Below are positions 10,320 through 35,567 of a stretch of 64,000 nucleotides of DNA, in pieces. The notes under the pieces are model-generated. The model made no database searches and had not been told where the DNA came from. It saw only the letters and a program-made list of their open reading frames with translations. Position numbers and translations under genes: made by a program. Source of the DNA: Scleroderma bovista (taxonomy: Eukaryota > Basidiomycota > Agaricomycetes > Boletales > Sclerodermataceae); contig JAYMGJ010000240.1 of NCBI GenBank assembly GCA_037178675.1, forward strand, positions 48,456-112,455, in the 5' to 3' direction. How positions within the stretch are numbered: the stretch's first letter is position 1; each line of letters opens with the position of its first letter.

Positions 10320-10950
10320 GGCCCTGGGAGTGCTGGAGTGCACGCTAGTAAACCTTTGACTCGTCCTAATACTATTGCTTACTCTGTGCCACTCGTCGGA
10401 TACCCTCAGCGGTATGGCAAGAGAGGATCCACACTGGCTAGTACCAGTGTGGTGCTGCACGGGGACGAGAAAAGTGCTGGCGTGCTCCCGAAAGGGACAT
10501 TCTCGCCCGGCTGGCCTGTGGGAACAGCCTCGAGCGCTGTTGGCTTCGCTGACAAAGAAGCCTCCTTGTCCCCACCCGCCTTCACCCAGTTTTTCAGACC
10601 ATCCTTGCGTTGGGTCGCTGCCAGCTCACACGCTTCGGCCTACTCCCTTCGTATGTGGTAGATGGTAGTTCACCTAAACAGCCCCGGAAGGGCGGCGGTC
10701 GGGGTAGCGGTTTAAGCCCCCTGATGAGAGCTTTCGCAGGCTCGAAACCGCACACCCAAACCCGCCCCTTTACCTGTCCCTGTGTGTACTGTACGCGGCC
10801 CCGATCTTAGGAGAGGGGCGTCCGACGGACACGACAAACAGATTTGATCGCCCGGGATACCTTTCTTCGCACACAGACTATACACTACCCCCCTTCGGGG
10901 GGTAGTCTGGGCAACTGTTGTCGGCACCATTCGGCACCTCGGTTTTTTAC
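10320..10950 (+). ncRNA. Structured non-coding region around a hammerhead ribozyme
   Basis: This GC-rich stretch lacks a credible coding frame but is dense in perfect short hairpins: CCACACTGG/CCAGTGTGG (10429-10452), a CCC-GAAA-GGG stem near 10489-10498, GCCC/GGGC near 10682, GTCC/GGAC near 10829, and a 10-bp stem ACTACCCCCC/GGGGGGTAGT at about 10883-10905. The hammerhead ribozyme lies inside it. The density of paired elements suggests selection on RNA structure, as in ribozyme-bearing retroelement ends or viroid-like RNAs. The identity of the parent element is not known, and the limits given are approximate. Confidence 0.45.
10695..10751 (+). ncRNA. Type III hammerhead self-cleaving ribozyme
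   Basis: All invariant core positions are present in the right order. Stem III is GCGGT (10695-10699) paired with ACCGC (10747-10751). The cleavage triplet GTC ends at C10700. Stem I is GGGGT (10701-10705) with GCCCC (10716-10720) around a 10-nt loop. The core CTGATGA occupies 10721-10727. Stem II is GAGC (10728-10731) with GCTC (10740-10743), followed by GAAA (10744-10747), whose last A forms the A15.1-U16.1 pair. Stem III is the open helix, making it type III. Loop I (GCG, 10707-10709) and loop II (CGC, 10735-10737) could kiss, as in fast natural ribozymes; that contact is inference. Predicted cleavage is after 10700. Confidence 0.85.
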
Positions 10951-11349: not shown

Positions 11350-13592
11350 TTATGTTTTCGACTTTATTTGGCGCAGAAGAAGCCTCCCAAGAGGAGGAAC
11401 ACTCGTTACGTTTAGGGGATCAGCGACGATGTATTTTCCACCCTCGATTTCCGGCGTGGAAGTTGCTAGCAAGGCAAGTGTGATCATCTTGATTTCTATT
11501 TACTGATTTAAGTGACGAAGGTCGCGTTATTTGTACCGATATACTTACCACTAACTGCTAGAATGCGTCCAGGACACGCCCATCTTCCGAAACCGAACGG
11601 CAAGTAACCTTGCCCAACTGTTGATGAGGCAGGTCCTTCCTCCCACCGACAGGGGTTAAATTCTGTGACCCCTTTGCCATACATTGTTTGGCTACGATGG
11701 ATAAGAGTGGTCAAAGGGTAAATGAGATTGTCTGCGCATGCACGGTAAGCAAGGTTCATACCATAACCAAGGACGGCAAACCTTTTGGAATGACGTGTTC
11801 ACCAAGTGGGACGTCGCGAGTTGTCGCTCGGACGACACTCAGTGTGTCTCCTTTCGTTCTAAAGACTTCGCGTATGAATGAATCTAGCGTCGTCGAACGA
11901 CGTAAGGCTTCGTATGATAGCCTTTGAATCCCATTGTTATCGATGCTGTCCGCAACGACAGACAGCTCTTCGCGTATGGCAGGTATGTATTCCTTTCGCG
12001 TAGACAACTCGAACACGACCCAGACTGCGACAGCTGCCGTCTGATGGACAGACGCAAAGATAAAGCTGCGTCGTCAGGCAGTTTAGGTGAGTGAAAATTG
12101 ACGCATGCAGGACAAATCAACATACCCAAGGACCAATGTGGACACCCACAATGTCGAAAGGATCGAAACATGACCTTGATCATCGGTGTACATCCTGGCG
12201 ATGTAGTGGACTAGCGGCTCCTGAGAGTGGGTCAGATCATACGCAACCGCTGTAGTAGGTACATTTACGTCATGTGTTTCTTCCTCGTCAAGCTCATCCA
12301 ACGTGCGTGTGTGTAGGGGTCGGTATTTGCGACCACGGATCTCCTTCCATATAATTGGAACGATGACACGGAAATATTTGAAGATGATAATCCCCGACAC
12401 CAATCTAACCCTAGGTATTCGCTTACTCCTTGGACGGGGCAAGGGAATCTACGGTGCGTACCATGTGACAACTTTCCAGAGCGTTGGATATGTCCGTGCG
12501 AAAGGCGAAGTGTTTTGGTACATCCCAGTCATGACCGCAATTGCATGTGCGGTTTCCTCTGTGACTTGTAGGTTGAGATCATTTACGTTATGCTGGAGGT
12601 GATAATTGTGATAGGTCATGAGTACCAAAGGTATTGTGGTGACTACTCGATGTGCTTACCTTTCCCAGAGCAGCGATCAGCATTGCCTCTGCGATGCAAC
12701 GATGCACATGTGCGAATAGATCGACGCCTTTTCCAGACAGTTGTGATTCGTTTATCATTTCTTTTGCGCAATTGTTGAAAGTAGGAAATACTGACATACA
12801 CACAAGGCAGCGTCAGCGCCCGGGACCATATCCTTCGAGGCTAGTACTTACTTTGATCTACTAGTTTATCTATTCTTGAGATGATCCCGCCGGCGACCAT
12901 CATGTGCACATTCTTGAAGAATCTTCCCTTGCTCAGGGGCATCAAAAACCACAGATTTAGGATCTACGGTTACATCGTATGTCAACACGTCATATCATTT
13001 ATTTTAGATTACTTACCCTTGCCGTTCCGTGTTCGAAGCTGAAGTCATGGTCATCTGCCAAGACATCTTTCGTGAGTTCTTCGTTAACAATATACTCGAG
13101 CTGTGTAGACGCTTTAGAACACGATTGAAGAGAAGGAGATCCGACACACTCTTCCTTTCCTCCGCACACCAATGACAGGCCCGTGTTTCAGTATTGCCGA
13201 TTCATAGGCTTCCTGAGGACGTGTGAACATTTCGTCCGCCTGGCCAGGTAGTAGTAAGTTAAATCCGAGATTAGGATAACATAACTCACAGGAATATCTA
13301 TTATTGGAGGATATCGATATGCTTGGCTGTTATTTGACAGCTGTTGGGTATAAAGTGAGGTTTTCTCCACATATTAGCAAATTACACTCACCTTGGAACG
13401 TTTCCGTTGTCGGATGAACAGAAAGAAAATGGCGAAAAGAATTAGGGTCCCCAAAATTGGTAGTCGGCGGGCGTATCGTGCCGGAAGTGTATGGAAGATG
13501 AGAAGCGAAGGCGTGTCGGAATAAGATGCGCAGTGATCAGCTGCAGCCAGTGTGGGGAAACGGGGCAATGATCCCGTGGCTGGAGACTCCAT
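11350..13592 (-). CDS. Cytochrome P450 monooxygenase
   Basis: About nine short introns split this gene. The first exon (13592-13392) carries an N-terminal membrane anchor (LPILGTLILFAIFFLFI) followed by a basic stretch (RQRKRSK). Later exons encode QEAYESAILKHGPVIGVRRK, an I-helix region reading FASVHQTAAVAVW, the K-helix ExxR as EVFR, and the heme-binding loop FGFGRWACPGR with the cysteine ligand. The last exon ends GRLLLRQIKSKT at a TAA (11350-11352). With introns removed all these motifs stay in frame, so the gene seems intact, of roughly normal length near 520 residues. The FASVHQT-type I helix resembles the fungal ER-bound clans related to CYP512/CYP5359 rather than classical AGxDT enzymes; the family is inference. 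Substrate unknown. The 3' side faces the ribozyme region, which lies antisense to its downstream flank. Confidence 0.85.
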
Positions 13593-15086: not shown

Positions 15087-15735
15087 CTATGTTAATGCCT
15101 GTTGTGTAATGGCTTCCTGCCATTTCTCTTTTGATCTTTTATCGAGTACATCAAGCCGTTCATCCTCAATCCATAAGTGTTCGCTGGGGTGATGGGTAAA
15201 TAAATGTTCATCGAAATCGCGCAATAGGTGCACGGTGTTTCTTCCGCGACTGTGTGATAATGCGACGTATGCGTTGAAAGGAGTCAGTTTGCCAGTCGGA
15301 GGAGTGCCGAGATCGATTATGCAATGCTCTATTGTTTGGGCTGGGGAACAATAGTCGGTGAACACGTATGCGGGCGTGACTGGAAGTTGTTGCCTGGTGA
15401 CTGTAACTTTGTTGCCACTAGATGTCACAACGCTGAATGTCCTCATCAGGGGCGTAATCGGAAGTACTCCCGTCTCTAATCCTGGCAGCGGGTCGGCTTT
15501 GGTGCATATCATTCGCACAAGAATGTAAAGAGGTGGGTATTGCAGCACCTTCGTGAGTGAGGGTACAGTGCTCATCTCCTCTCGAGCATCGAGAATAATA
15601 TCCACTATATGTCCGCGTGCTCCATTGGCAACATCAAGGTCTGTGGAAACGTTGAATGTCACCATTACTTCCATGCCAATCGCAATGTCCACTTCGTCAG
15701 CCAGTCCAGCCCATTCGCGACAGTTTCTTCCTCAT
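15087..15735 (-). pseudogene. Helitron helicase (Pif1-like) C-terminal fragment
   Basis: Minus-strand translation gives EWAGLADEVDIAIG, MEVMVTFNVSTDLDVANGAR, then FNAYVALSHSRGR and TVHLLRDFDEHLFTHHPSE before the stop. This is the end of the Pif1-like helicase of Agaricomycete Helitrons, including the late helicase motif around ALSHSRGR. Nothing of the Walker A/B part or the Rep nuclease lies upstream. A stop precedes the fragment and a divergent gene starts only some 20 bp away. It is a truncated, inactive remnant. Confidence 0.8.
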
Positions 15736-16899: not shown

Positions 16900-18844
16900 G
16901 ATTACATAATCACAAAAAGTGTTGCTACTCCCAAAACACGACCGCATTTGGTCAATACCAGAACTGCAATATTCCCACCCTCCTTGTGAGTCTCCTCTGC
17001 CTTCCTGTGCCCCATCCCTGGTCCTCATGTACTGTACATAGTATCAGATATGTTATATCAGTATATAGGTCCATAAATGGAGCCTCAAATGAATGTGCCA
17101 GAGGCTCTGGATGGTTGGAAAAATAGTTAGGGGTAAAAGTAAAAAAGGCTTCGCATTTTTGATACATTGGACATATACACTTCTGAATTACATCCCCTTC
17201 AAGGGGCCATATGTACCTACAACATATACCAAGCACATTTGATGGGGTGGAGCCTCTGAAGTGCTGTGTCACATTCTCCTCCTCCTGGTATAACACCCTG
17301 GGAGGCTCTTACTGCGAGTGTTGGTACTTTTTGGATGGTTTGTAAGTGTATTAGTTTACTATTACCACTTGTCTATCACATAAACTGGGATACAGAGCGC
17401 TCTAAAGGTGAGCAGGAGGGCAAACACTACTTTTATGAAAATAGGGGCTTTATCAGTCCCCAGTGCAACCATCCATATTCTGACTATCTAGGAGGCTCTG
17501 TAATACTATATAGTAGTTGCCATATCACCACCAAGTTAATAGCTTGATGTGGAAGCACAGGAGAAGTGAAATGATATGATGGATGGCGTGGGAAAATGTC
17601 CGAAAAAATGCGGAGACTTTGAAAACATATCAAAAAAGTGACATAACACACCACACACAGCATTTGGTGCTCTACTGGTGGTGGTACTGAGGATCTGACC
17701 TATGATAGCATCTTACCATACAGGATATTGCATTAGTTAGCCTGACAGAACCTCTGGACTCCAAACTTAGTGTACAGATTGTGCAACCTGCAGCACTGAA
17801 ATGTAGCCATTGCACAAGGTGCTCTCTTGTGCCAAAATTTCGCTTTCTGAAGAGATTATGGTTTATACAAATACTGTGACACATGTAAAGAGTCTGTAAT
17901 GACACTAGAGAGTCAGTAGCACAATTCATAGACCACCAAATGCTGTGTGTGGTGTGTTATGTCACTTTTTTGATATGTTTTCAAAGTCTCCGCATTTTTT
18001 CGGACATTTTCCCACGCCATCCATCATATCATTTCACTTCTCCTGTGCTTCCACATCAAGCTATTAACTTGGTGGTGATATGGCAACTACTATATAGTAT
18101 TACAGAGCCTCCTAGATAGTCAGAATATGGATGGTTGCACTGGGGACTGATAAAGCCCCTATTTTCATAAAAGTAGTGTTTGCCCTCCTGCTCACCTTTA
18201 GAGCGCTCTGTATCCCAGTTTATGTGATAGACAAGTGGTAATAGTAAACTAATACACTTACAAACCATCCAAAAAGTACCAACACTCGCAGTAAGAGCCT
18301 CCCAGGGTGTTATACCAGGAGGAGGAGAATGTGACACAGCACTTCAGAGGCTCCACCCCATCGGAATGGAGTTGAACCACTGTCTCTCGAACTTCAGTCA
18401 AACGCTTTAACCCTTAAGCCACCAAAGCTTTAAATTAAAAAATAAAAATAAAGCGAATAATTTACTTTTATTCTAATGGTTTAATATCTCCGATTTACAA
18501 AGGCAAATGTGCTTGGTATATGTTGTAGGTACATATGGCCCCTTGAAGGGGATGTAATTCAGAAGTGTATATGTCCAATGTATCAAAAATGCGAAGCCTT
18601 TTTTACTTTTACCCCTAACTATTTTTCCAACCATCCAGAGCCTCTGGCACATTCATTTGAGGCTCCATTTATGGACCTATATACTGATATAACATATCTG
18701 ATACTATGTACAGTACATGGGGACCAGGGATGGGGCACAGGAAGGCAGAGGAGACTCACAAGGAGGGTGGGAATATTGCAGTTCTGGTATTGACCAAATG
18801 CGGTCGTGTTTTGGGAGTAGCAACACTTTTTGTGATTATGTAAT
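16900..18844. mobile_element. 1.9-kb near-perfect palindrome (foldback element)
   Basis: The left arm 16900-17669 and right arm 17934-18844 are reverse complements over about 770 bp with only about one substitution seen and one 142-bp insertion in the right arm. A 264-bp unique spacer separates them. The arms have no recognisable transposase; the mirrored short frames in them are the same sequence read twice. Outer ends read GATTACATAATC, itself nearly palindromic. I see no clear target duplication. The left end lies only three bases beyond a Helitron CTAG. Arms this alike imply recent formation or conversion. Confidence 0.8.
18363..18504 (-). mobile_element. tRNA-Phe-like (SINE-like) insert in the palindrome
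   Basis: This 142-bp segment is absent from the left arm of the palindrome. Read on the minus strand it starts near GCTTTGG, has a D arm GCTT..AAGC with an A-box-like GGCTTAAGGGTT, an anticodon loop CTGAAGT (anticodon GAA, Phe), and a T arm GTGG-TTCAACT-CCAT with the B box GGTTCAACTCC. The 3' acceptor strand does not pair, so it is not a working tRNA. An AT-rich stretch flanks it. A tRNA-derived SINE or pseudo-tRNA is the best explanation. Confidence 0.6.
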
Positions 18845-33140: not shown

Positions 33141-35567
33141 ATGCCCCCCAAAGTGGACCTCGTCGTCGTTTTCCGCGTCGCTCCACCTCAACCAGGCGTT
33201 GCGCCATCCAAGGAGCAAGTGCGTCAGAGTACTGCGAAATCCGAGCGGCAATATACTGCACTCATAGATACGCTCACAAGAGCGGGACTCAGAGCAGTCG
33301 GGAGGCGAGGGGAGAACCAAGACCAACTGCTCATTATGGTCACCTGCCCCCGGGGTGTGTTGACCAAGCTCGTACATTGCGAACGGTGAGTGTCTATGTG
33401 CTCCAAGGGTGGATATGTGGTCATACGCGTTCTGCAGATACTCGGATTTCCTCTACGGACTCCCGATGTCGAAACTTCCATCTGCGGACACAGACCTCGA
33501 TGCTACTCCTCTCTCGCCAGCCGATCGGATACGTCTCGTGCATGCTTATATCACTTCCACTCCGCAAGATGGAGGTCTCGGGATTGTACCAGGGTGCAAC
33601 GAATGGGACCTGGTTCAGTCCGTTATGGCACTTCACGATCACGACTTTAACGAGCATTGGATACGGCTATGGACAAGACACCGCATTGCATCCGTACAAC
33701 TCGAGAAAATCAGAGATCAGGTATACCTTCTGCCATCAAATCGTGATTGCGTTGTTCTAATTTTCACTTCCGTCAGTTCGGTGATTCAGTCGCTCTGTAC
33801 TTTTTTTTCCTCTCAGCGTATACACGTGCCCTTATCTTCCCAGCTGTCTTGGGCCTCGTGTTCTACTTCTTTGGGACCCCTTACTCGGCGCTGTATTCCT
33901 CGCTCCTTCTCATATGGTCTGTCGTGTTCGTGGAGTGGTGGAACCTGCAACAACGCATTCTCTCTGTGCGGTGGTGCACGCGAGGGTCGTTCCGGGTGGA
34001 GAAACGGAGGGCAGACTACATCCCAAGTCTCCCTTGGTGGAAGAAGGAGTTCCGCAAGATGGCGAGCATACCTACTATACTCCTTTTTGCAAGCATTCTG
34101 GCAACACTTTTGACGGCCATATTCGTACTGGAGGCATTCGTGACACAACTGTACAAAGGTCCAGGACACAAGATAATCGTGAGTGTTTCCCTCGTGGCAC
34201 CGTTCGTGAAATTTGCTGAGATGTGATCTTAGGCTTTCACTCCTACCATTTTGTTCATGGCTCTTGTGCCGAAGCTCCTGGGAATCTACAAGGGATACGC
34301 AATGCGGTTCACTGATAGGGAGAATCACGCACACCAGTCAAGCCACAACAGCTCATTAACCATCAAAGTATTCACTCTATCTGCCATGAATGCTTACCTC
34401 GGCCTTGCACTCTCCGCGTTTGTATATGTCCCTTTCGGAGAGAGCGTAATGCACTTTGTGCAGCACCATCTATTCTCCGGGAGCCTTCGCGCAGCCGTTA
34501 TGCTTGAGAAGTTCGGTACGAACCTTAACGACACTATCAAATTCAGAAGCAAGGGAGAGAACGTGGCAGGCAATGTATCGACGCTCAGTTTCTTCGAGGC
34601 TGATAGAGAGAATGCACGGCAAAAGTTGAATCCCTCGAGATTGCAGGAACAGATGTTTGCATTTACCGTGACGAATCAGGTGGTGAACAACTTTATGGAG
34701 ATCGGATTGCCTTATGTTTTACGGGCTGTTGATACTTTTCGAAGTGGGAAGAGCCCTCGTCATGGAAGGGCTCTAGGGAAGAAGAAACGAGTTGCATTTG
34801 AGGATGAACCCGTCGCGCAGACACAGAACCAGGGTCAGGGTCAAGAGAAACGCACTGAGGAACGCGAGTTCCTCGAAACCGTACGAAGCGAGGTGACTCG
34901 TCCAGAATACGACGTCTTTGGGGACTACGGCGAGATGGTCACGCAATTTGGCTACATTGCGCTCTGGTCGACGATCTGGCCGCTAGCACCTGTCATGGCG
35001 CTGCTGAACAACTATATCGAGGTGCGTTCAGATGCGTTCAAGATTGCCACGGTTGCACGACGGCCTATCCCTATTCGCACGGACACGATCGGGCCATGGC
35101 TTGAGTCCTTGTCATTCCTCGCATGGCTCTCTGCCCTCACGAATTCGGCGTTAGTGTACCTTTTCCGCCCCCCGGACCACCCCGCTGTCCTTGCCGGTGT
35201 GGACGTGACCGCGAGTGCCGATGTGCATCTACATCATGATCGTGGTAATGGGATAGCGGCGACGGAAGAGTTACTGGGCCACGCACTACTTGTCGCGCTT
35301 CTCGCGTCGCATGGATATCTGCTCCTGCGCGCTGCAGTAAGGCGCATACTTGAGCTGGCGATATGGCGAGGAAGCGAGGAAGCCAAGGAAGCTGAGAGAG
35401 CCGAGAGAGAGATGAAGGAGCAGTACCTGGGGCAGGTCACCTCGCCCACTAGTGATGCTAAAGTGAGTGTGGCCGAATCCTTTGTTCATGACAGCGATGA
35501 GTGGGAGGCATTTTGGGCTTCCGATGAGGGACTCGACGAGATTCAGAGACTGGTTAAGGACGCTTAA
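33141..35567 (+). CDS. Anoctamin/TMEM16 family protein (Ist2-like)
   Basis: Four exons (33141-33385, 33438-33720, 33777-34178, 34233-35567) give a continuous frame of 754 residues. A soluble N-terminal domain is followed by KIRDQFGDSVALYF and a series of membrane helices (LYFFFLSAYTRALIFP; LLLIWSVVFVEWW; IPTILLFASILATLL; FMALVPKLLGIYKG; LPYVLR; FGYIALWSTIWPLAPVMALLNNYIEVRSDAFK). The last block is the highly conserved anoctamin region with calcium-site acidic residues (E and D of NNYIEVRSD). Fungal members are lipid scramblases or ER-plasma membrane tethers. A charged cytosolic tail follows the last helices. The gene looks intact. Confidence 0.92.

Follow-up and report, generated by a model that had tools for sequence, protein, structure and literature searches.

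Introduction

Hammerhead ribozymes located in dispersed genomic repeats have so far been explained by retroelements and circular RNA. Among these carriers are the plant retrozymes, which are reported to possess LTRs, two ribozymes, a primer-binding site and 4-bp target duplications (PMC4918200). Among fungi, hammerheads have been described from interspersed repeats of Yarrowia (PMC3088659), and five Rfam matches to the type III hammerhead are listed for Pleurotus ostreatus (PMC5040776). A fungal hammerhead, even one of type III from an agaricomycete, is therefore not new.

A second group of elements is relevant to the locus analyzed here. Helraiser, an experimentally studied Helitron, is described as inserting without target duplication, as having a 3' hairpin terminator, and as preferring insertion between A and T without an absolute requirement for it; among the flanking bases, those 3' of the insertion show the most marked preference (PMC4778049). 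Helitrons with different ends have been described from fungi as well. One group of them is reported as having no established insertion preference, and the non-canonical Helitrons of Fusarium are described with an asymmetric terminal inverted repeat of 12-16 bp (PMC5148889).

In this study, we analyzed a stretch of 64,000 nucleotides from Scleroderma bovista (hereafter the window), in which a type III hammerhead motif was found inside a short mobile element.

Results

The hammerhead motif

A scan of both strands for hammerheads of types I and III, in which G.U pairs and long loops were permitted, found a single site in the window (Table 1). The motif at 10695-10751 (plus strand) is arranged in the order GCGGT, C10700, GGGG-loop-CCCC, CTGATGA, GAGC-loop-GCTC, GAAA and CCGC. 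It thus possesses the conserved core CUGANGA...GAAA, the GUC cleavage triplet (N-U-H), three helices and the type III order. Helix III of the window copy has 5 bp, the U16.1-A15.1 pair counted, and helix I has four Watson-Crick pairs and a possible U.G pair. The type III anatomy, the coordinates and the helix lengths proposed in an earlier sequence-only reading are borne out by the motif scan and by the cmscan alignment.

Table 1. Positions of the ribozyme and element features in the window
Feature	Position	Strand	Basis or remark
Mobile element, 531 bp, TCTGTGCC...TCTGGGCA, without coding evidence	10383..10913	+	Common ends; empty allele in C415
Type III hammerhead motif	10695..10751	+	Motif scan; cmscan, 28.9 bits
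Helix III, 5' strand	10690..10699	+	Partner 10747-10757; shorter in the window copy than in the commoner form
C17, predicted cleavage site (cut 3' of the base)	10700..10700	+	Alignment of copies
Helix I, GGGG/CCCC, 12-nt loop	10701..10720	+	
Core CUGAUGA	10721..10727	+	
Helix II, GAGC/GCUC, 4 bp, 8-nt loop	10728..10743	+	
Core GAAA, final A = A15.1	10744..10747	+	
Competing hairpin GCGGUUU/AAACCGC (10707-10713 with 10745-10751)	10707..10751	+	Pair probability
CACAGA, the 5' terminal TCTGTG in inverted form, 36 nt before the 3' end	10872..10877	+	
3'-subterminal hairpin, perfect 10-bp stem, 3-nt loop, 7 nt from the 3' end	10884..10906	+	
Downstream target, resembling the first 8 bases of the element	10914..10921	+	

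The window has no match to Rfam Hammerhead_3 (RF00008) at the gathering threshold. The motif scores 28.9 bits against a gathering score of 48.5 (E 0.0012 for 1.6 kb and 4227 families) and so falls short of the above-threshold covariance-model hit that the earlier reading had named as a check, although the alignment of the model to the motif is sensible. Searching the whole genome with RF00008 alone gives the motif an E value of 0.009 and yields another match of 21.7 bits at C84:91849. At a loose setting (E<=10), matches to RF00008 are also present in 7 of 14 control genomes, all of them under the family cut-off. Six further loci were scanned with the model: three carrying the commoner form of the ribozyme described below (L013, L017 and L022) score 26.8 bits (E 0.036), and L062, L064 and L087 give nothing at E<=0.5.

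The loose scan produced two matches, one of type I and one of type III, in 1198 first-order Markov windows, which is about 0.002 per window, and about one chance occurrence of the loose motif is expected in the genome of 51.8 Mb. For the strict motif, with Watson-Crick pairs only and short loops, the chance expectation calculated from base frequencies is 1.2e-7 per 64 kb and 9e-5 per 51.8 Mb. We do not regard the sub-threshold Rfam score as decisive, given that no part of the conserved core is missing and that the strict motif would hardly arise by chance. Judged from its sequence, the window motif is confirmed as a genuine type III hammerhead motif, and it is predicted to be self-cleaving. 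A total of 66 core-pattern matches were found in the genome, 36 of which belong to the element family described below; the other 30 look like background, since a reversed control pattern gives 60.

The carrier element

The motif is part of a dispersed repeat. When the genome that contains the window (51.8 Mb) was searched, the repeat spanned 10400 to about 10916; with a longer query, its 5' border fell sharply at 10383 and its 3' border at 10913-10917. At least 39 copies are present, with 86-100% identity across the matched portion. Since 40 of 100 candidates were scored, the copy numbers are minima, and some copies are alleles. One additional copy, on contig C441, is without a whole ribozyme. 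The 5'-end pattern has 51 genome matches at 0-1 mismatch and 61 at up to two (18 for the reversed control), and the 3'-end pattern has 33 exact matches and 52 at up to one mismatch (3 for the control). Each unit contains one ribozyme, placed away from the element ends. No head-to-tail neighbouring units were seen among the listed 5' and 3' ends, compared by eye, no direct repeats of 14 nt or more were reported within the element, and the open frame 10320-10658 that overlaps it has no Pfam match.

The carrier is a genuine, young mobile element; its youth is suggested by the absence of the window insertion from the other allele and by the near-identity of some copies. The earlier reading had placed either an undescribed ribozyme-bearing element or a non-coding RNA beside a P450 gene. 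The ribozyme-bearing element stands, and a lone non-coding RNA of the P450 locus is ruled out, as the element is multi-copy and mobile with sharp ends. The fungal nuclear setting was likewise correct, and so was the neighbouring P450 gene, which has an exon at 11756-12073 on the minus strand that matches PF00067.

Several apparent variants of the element were rejected. A 13-kb candidate for an autonomous form on C532 is actually a copy split by a 12.7-kb insert, and a longer form on C250 is explained by a 1-kb insert with an 8-bp overlap. Those sites with a 5' or 3' end alone that were read look truncated or interrupted, and similar 3' ends at C365, C426, C677, C109 and C309 are part of unrelated repeats. 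The 12.7-kb insert (L047 446 to L048 3203) has CACCAC...GTGGTG ends without long direct repeats there and splits its copy beside the ribozyme.

Elsewhere in the window, an anoctamin exon (34233-35564) places the host among the Boletales, close to Scleroderma: its identity is 86% with Scleroderma yunnanense, 76% with Pisolithus tinctorius and 97% with one further match. A tRNA match at 18357-18428 on the minus strand (43.6 bits) has some mispairs. Contigs C240 and C415, and contigs C84, C46 and C297, are allelic or near-identical, and two haplotypes are seemingly present in places of the assembly.

Conservation and folding of the ribozyme

Base 10754 is G in 24 of the 29 aligned copies, the commoner form. 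Helix III of this form is therefore GGGCG-GCGGU with ACCGC-A-CGCCC, that is, ten pairs and one bulged A, which adds five pairs relative to the window copy. The cleavage-site position 10700 is C in 26/29 aligned copies (A in one, G in one, a gap in one), and the core reads CUGACGA in 24/29, against CUGAUGA in the window copy. Among the 42 loci used to count conservation, 37 span the core completely, and 29 of those 37 retain it intact if A, C or T is allowed at 10700.

Non-CpG changes are found in 1 of 347 core cells versus 292 of 15503 cells outside the ribozyme. This advantage of the core disappears once CpG sites are included (0.032 changes per cell versus 0.025 elsewhere), and the ribozyme is not exceptional among the 463 windows of 68 nt along the element, 83 of which have a non-CpG rate equal to or below its own. 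The core-conservation signal is at most suggestive because the copies are related. No covariation above shuffles was detected in the helices of 20 distinct ribozymes, which are too alike to be informative (258 of 500 shuffles pair as well). Two old divergent relatives, 68-70% identical, were also found (L017 2885-3120 and L087 279-421). In both, the core is broken and helix III is absent, yet most of the core-to-GAAA stretch, which was chosen post hoc, is retained (33 of 35 bases in one of them).

A competing hairpin overlaps the ribozyme and has a pair probability of 0.93-1.00 in the full element. In folds of 73 nt, the hammerhead-like three-way shape appears in three of five copies, and L055 and L029 fold otherwise. 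When constrained to the hammerhead, the window copy trails the free ensemble by 2.3 kcal/mol in 73 nt and by 4.9 kcal/mol in 10640-10760. For RNA that extends to 10790 or more, the deficit is 11.6-13.5 kcal/mol in the window copy and 8.3-11.9 kcal/mol in L014, with tertiary contacts given no credit in any of these values. For transcripts past 10760, another fold is predicted by the model to beat the hammerhead by 8.3-13.5 kcal/mol. If the ribozyme works, it most likely acts while the RNA is being made.

These results bear on the possibility that the hammerhead likeness is fortuitous or long dead, and that the competing hairpin is the real RNA or DNA structure, amplified by a transposon. The dominance of the competing fold in context, the Rfam score under the cut-off, the lack of covariation, the broken cores of both divergent relatives, which are also without helix III, and the expectation of about one loose motif per genome all agree with it. 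The strict motif, however, is expected only 9e-5 times per genome, the commoner form has five extra helix III pairs, and the core is intact in 29/37 copies. We consider this explanation unlikely, though by no means negligible.

Insertion sites and element ends

The empty allele of the window insertion is present in C415, with flanks 99.6% identical over 3290 bases and 99.9% over 1505. C415 reads TTGCTTAC directly joined to ACTGTTG, where the window has exactly 531 bp between C10382 and A10914; the insertion is therefore polymorphic, seamless and unambiguous. Searching with the joined flanks of 14 other copies from the target-site set (40 of 68 candidates scored) gave three clean sites and none for 10 of the 14. 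Uninterrupted paralogous repeat sites for L011, L012 and L014 show the junction without duplication or loss. The empty site for L027 was left uncounted owing to a 10-bp difference beside the junction.

Target sites were counted at 30 of 35 examined loci. L030, L037 and L038 were dropped for having no recognisable 3' end, and L023 and L025 because their flank is the same as that of L020. The two sides of the insertion agree over 1, 2, 3 and 4 bp in 4, 2, 0 and 1 cases, respectively. No 4-bp target-site duplication is thus apparent, with one of 30 sites agreeing over 4 bp and the empty sites being seamless. The consensus directly 3' of the element is W-C-T-N-T-N-N-C. This target agrees with the element start TCTGTGCC at 3.53 of 8 positions on average, versus 2.03 (sd 0.23) at random window sites, a value reached by 0 of 20000 random samples. 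Junctions between A and T occur at 8/30 sites versus 6.5% expected; the remaining 22 are not of this kind.

The element starts with TC (TCTGTGCC) and its 3' end is TCTGGGCA, i.e. GGGCA and not CTRR, with the empty sites putting GCA within the insert. The 3' hairpin pattern has 28 genome matches at up to three mismatches and none for the reversed control. The loop of this hairpin is TTC in most listed copies and GAA in a few (L022, L023 and L027); as GAA is the reverse complement of TTC, the palindrome appears flipped in those few. The inverted pair CACAGA/TCTGTG is short (6 nt) and may be due to chance.

A total of 57 Helitron_like_N matches were found in the genome as candidates for a RepHel helper, none of them linked to the element ends in a comparison that covered the 5' end of one resident Helitron family. 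The resident canonical Helitrons start with TCTTCTATATT after an A, unlike the element. The resident family itself (L041, L042, L043, L067 and L068) starts with TCTTCTATATTAAAG after an A, and its top three loci have open frames of 1358-1597 aa and 97-99% mutual identity over about 3.3-3.6 kb. In the window, the open frame 15087-15731 on the minus strand has no Pfam match; we take it to resemble the end of a Pif1/Helitron helicase.

Discussion

Proposed mode of movement and role of the ribozyme

Our preferred reading, to which we give a probability of about 0.45, is that the element is a young transposon, non-coding and non-autonomous, that carries a type III hammerhead and is moved as DNA by a rolling-circle transposase, and that its ribozyme cuts RNA transcribed across it. 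As to class, a non-autonomous rolling-circle transposon of Helitron-like kind is probably a closer match to the element than a retrozyme or a Penelope-like element is. Fixed ends in dispersed copies, seamless insertion, the downstream target motif and the 3' hairpin speak for this class; the missing CTRR end, the weak preference for junctions between A and T and the lack of a coding partner among the candidates compared speak against a plain Helitron. In rolling-circle transposition the same nuclease nicks the element start and the target, and because one nuclease nicks both, the likeness of the element start to the downstream target is what the mechanism predicts. The element would be mobilised in trans by an HUH, Helitron-like transposase, which would nick directly before TCTGTGCC on the element and directly before WCTNT on the target and would stop at the 3' hairpin.

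The ribozyme would act on transcripts that run through the element. It would cut 3' of C10700 during transcription, ahead of the folding of downstream sequence onto the ribozyme. Such cleavage would break read-through transcripts or divide the RNA of the element, and the ribozyme would play no part in setting the ends of the moving DNA. Perhaps its service to a rolling-circle transposon is to cut host transcripts that read into the element. That a rolling-circle DNA transposon acquired and retained a functional type III hammerhead, which would serve a DNA-type element rather than produce circular RNA for reverse transcription, is a tentative idea that we hold to be possible but doubtful.

The main rival for the class of the element is a circular double-stranded DNA inserted by a tyrosine recombinase, with a Crypton or a DIRS/Ngaro-like element as helper and the ribozyme as cargo. 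Seamless insertion and the likeness of the 5' end to the downstream target would also fit site-specific recombination, but the shared motif is loose and a subterminal hairpin would be unexpected. We judge this origin rather improbable.

A retrozyme or Penelope-like retroelement, in which hammerhead-cleaved RNA forms a circle and is integrated after reverse transcription, would be the customary explanation, since hammerheads in dispersed repeats are usually reported to be of this kind (PMC4918200, PMC4918198). Here, however, each unit has a single ribozyme that lies away from its ends, whereas retrozymes are described with two in their LTRs; head-to-tail units are absent among the listed ends; and no target duplication corresponds to the 4-bp duplications given for retrozymes (PMC4918200). 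We find it improbable for this element. An endogenised viroid-like or ambivirus-like RNA is very improbable: such RNAs include carriers of type III hammerheads, and fungi are reported to harbour viroid-like RNAs (PMC13343976), but there is no second ribozyme in the window, no coding match, and many copies with fixed ends, and one exact 28-nt ribozyme pattern, a narrow test, has 0 matches in viral_contigs. The relatives suggested by the sequence-only reading (viroid-like RNA, retrozyme, Penelope-like element and ambivirus-like RNA) are thus unsupported, given a single ribozyme per unit, no head-to-tail neighbours and no duplication.

Seamless insertion together with a single ribozyme away from the ends does not fit the account by retroelements and circular RNA, and it raises the question of what use a self-cleaving RNA is to a DNA-type transposon. 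As the element looks young, its transcription, cleavage and movement are directly testable in a culturable ectomycorrhizal fungus.

Comparison with known systems

The motif shares the whole core, three helices, the GUC triplet and the type III order with the RF00008 hammerheads. It differs from them in its sub-threshold score, long loop I, bulged A in helix III and strong competing fold. With the hammerheads of Yarrowia and Pleurotus it has in common the fungal nuclear location, and further the placement in repeats (Yarrowia) or the agaricomycete type III form (Pleurotus); the comparison is by description, not by sequence, and element ends, insertion sites and mobilisation are not described in the portions of those reports consulted (PMC3088659, PMC5040776). 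Plant retrozymes, as described, are likewise short non-coding dispersed elements with a type III hammerhead (PMC4918200); this element differs from them in its single ribozyme and seamless insertion. No description of a hammerhead in a Helitron-like or duplication-free element was found in the open-licence PMC literature, mostly at the level of titles and abstract openings.

The element differs from Helitrons in being without a CTRR end, in the 8/30 frequency of insertion between A and T, in having no RepHel partner found, and in carrying a ribozyme. Compared with Helitron2 and the non-canonical fungal Helitrons, its inverted repeat has 6 nt versus the 12-16 bp reported in Fusarium (PMC5148889). 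The features that it shares with Helitrons, as these are described, are the lack of duplication, the TC start, the 3'-subterminal hairpin, some preference for insertion between A and T, and a target preference on the 3' side (PMC4778049, PMC4289320, PMC5148889), and its 3' hairpin stands at the position of the Helitron terminator.
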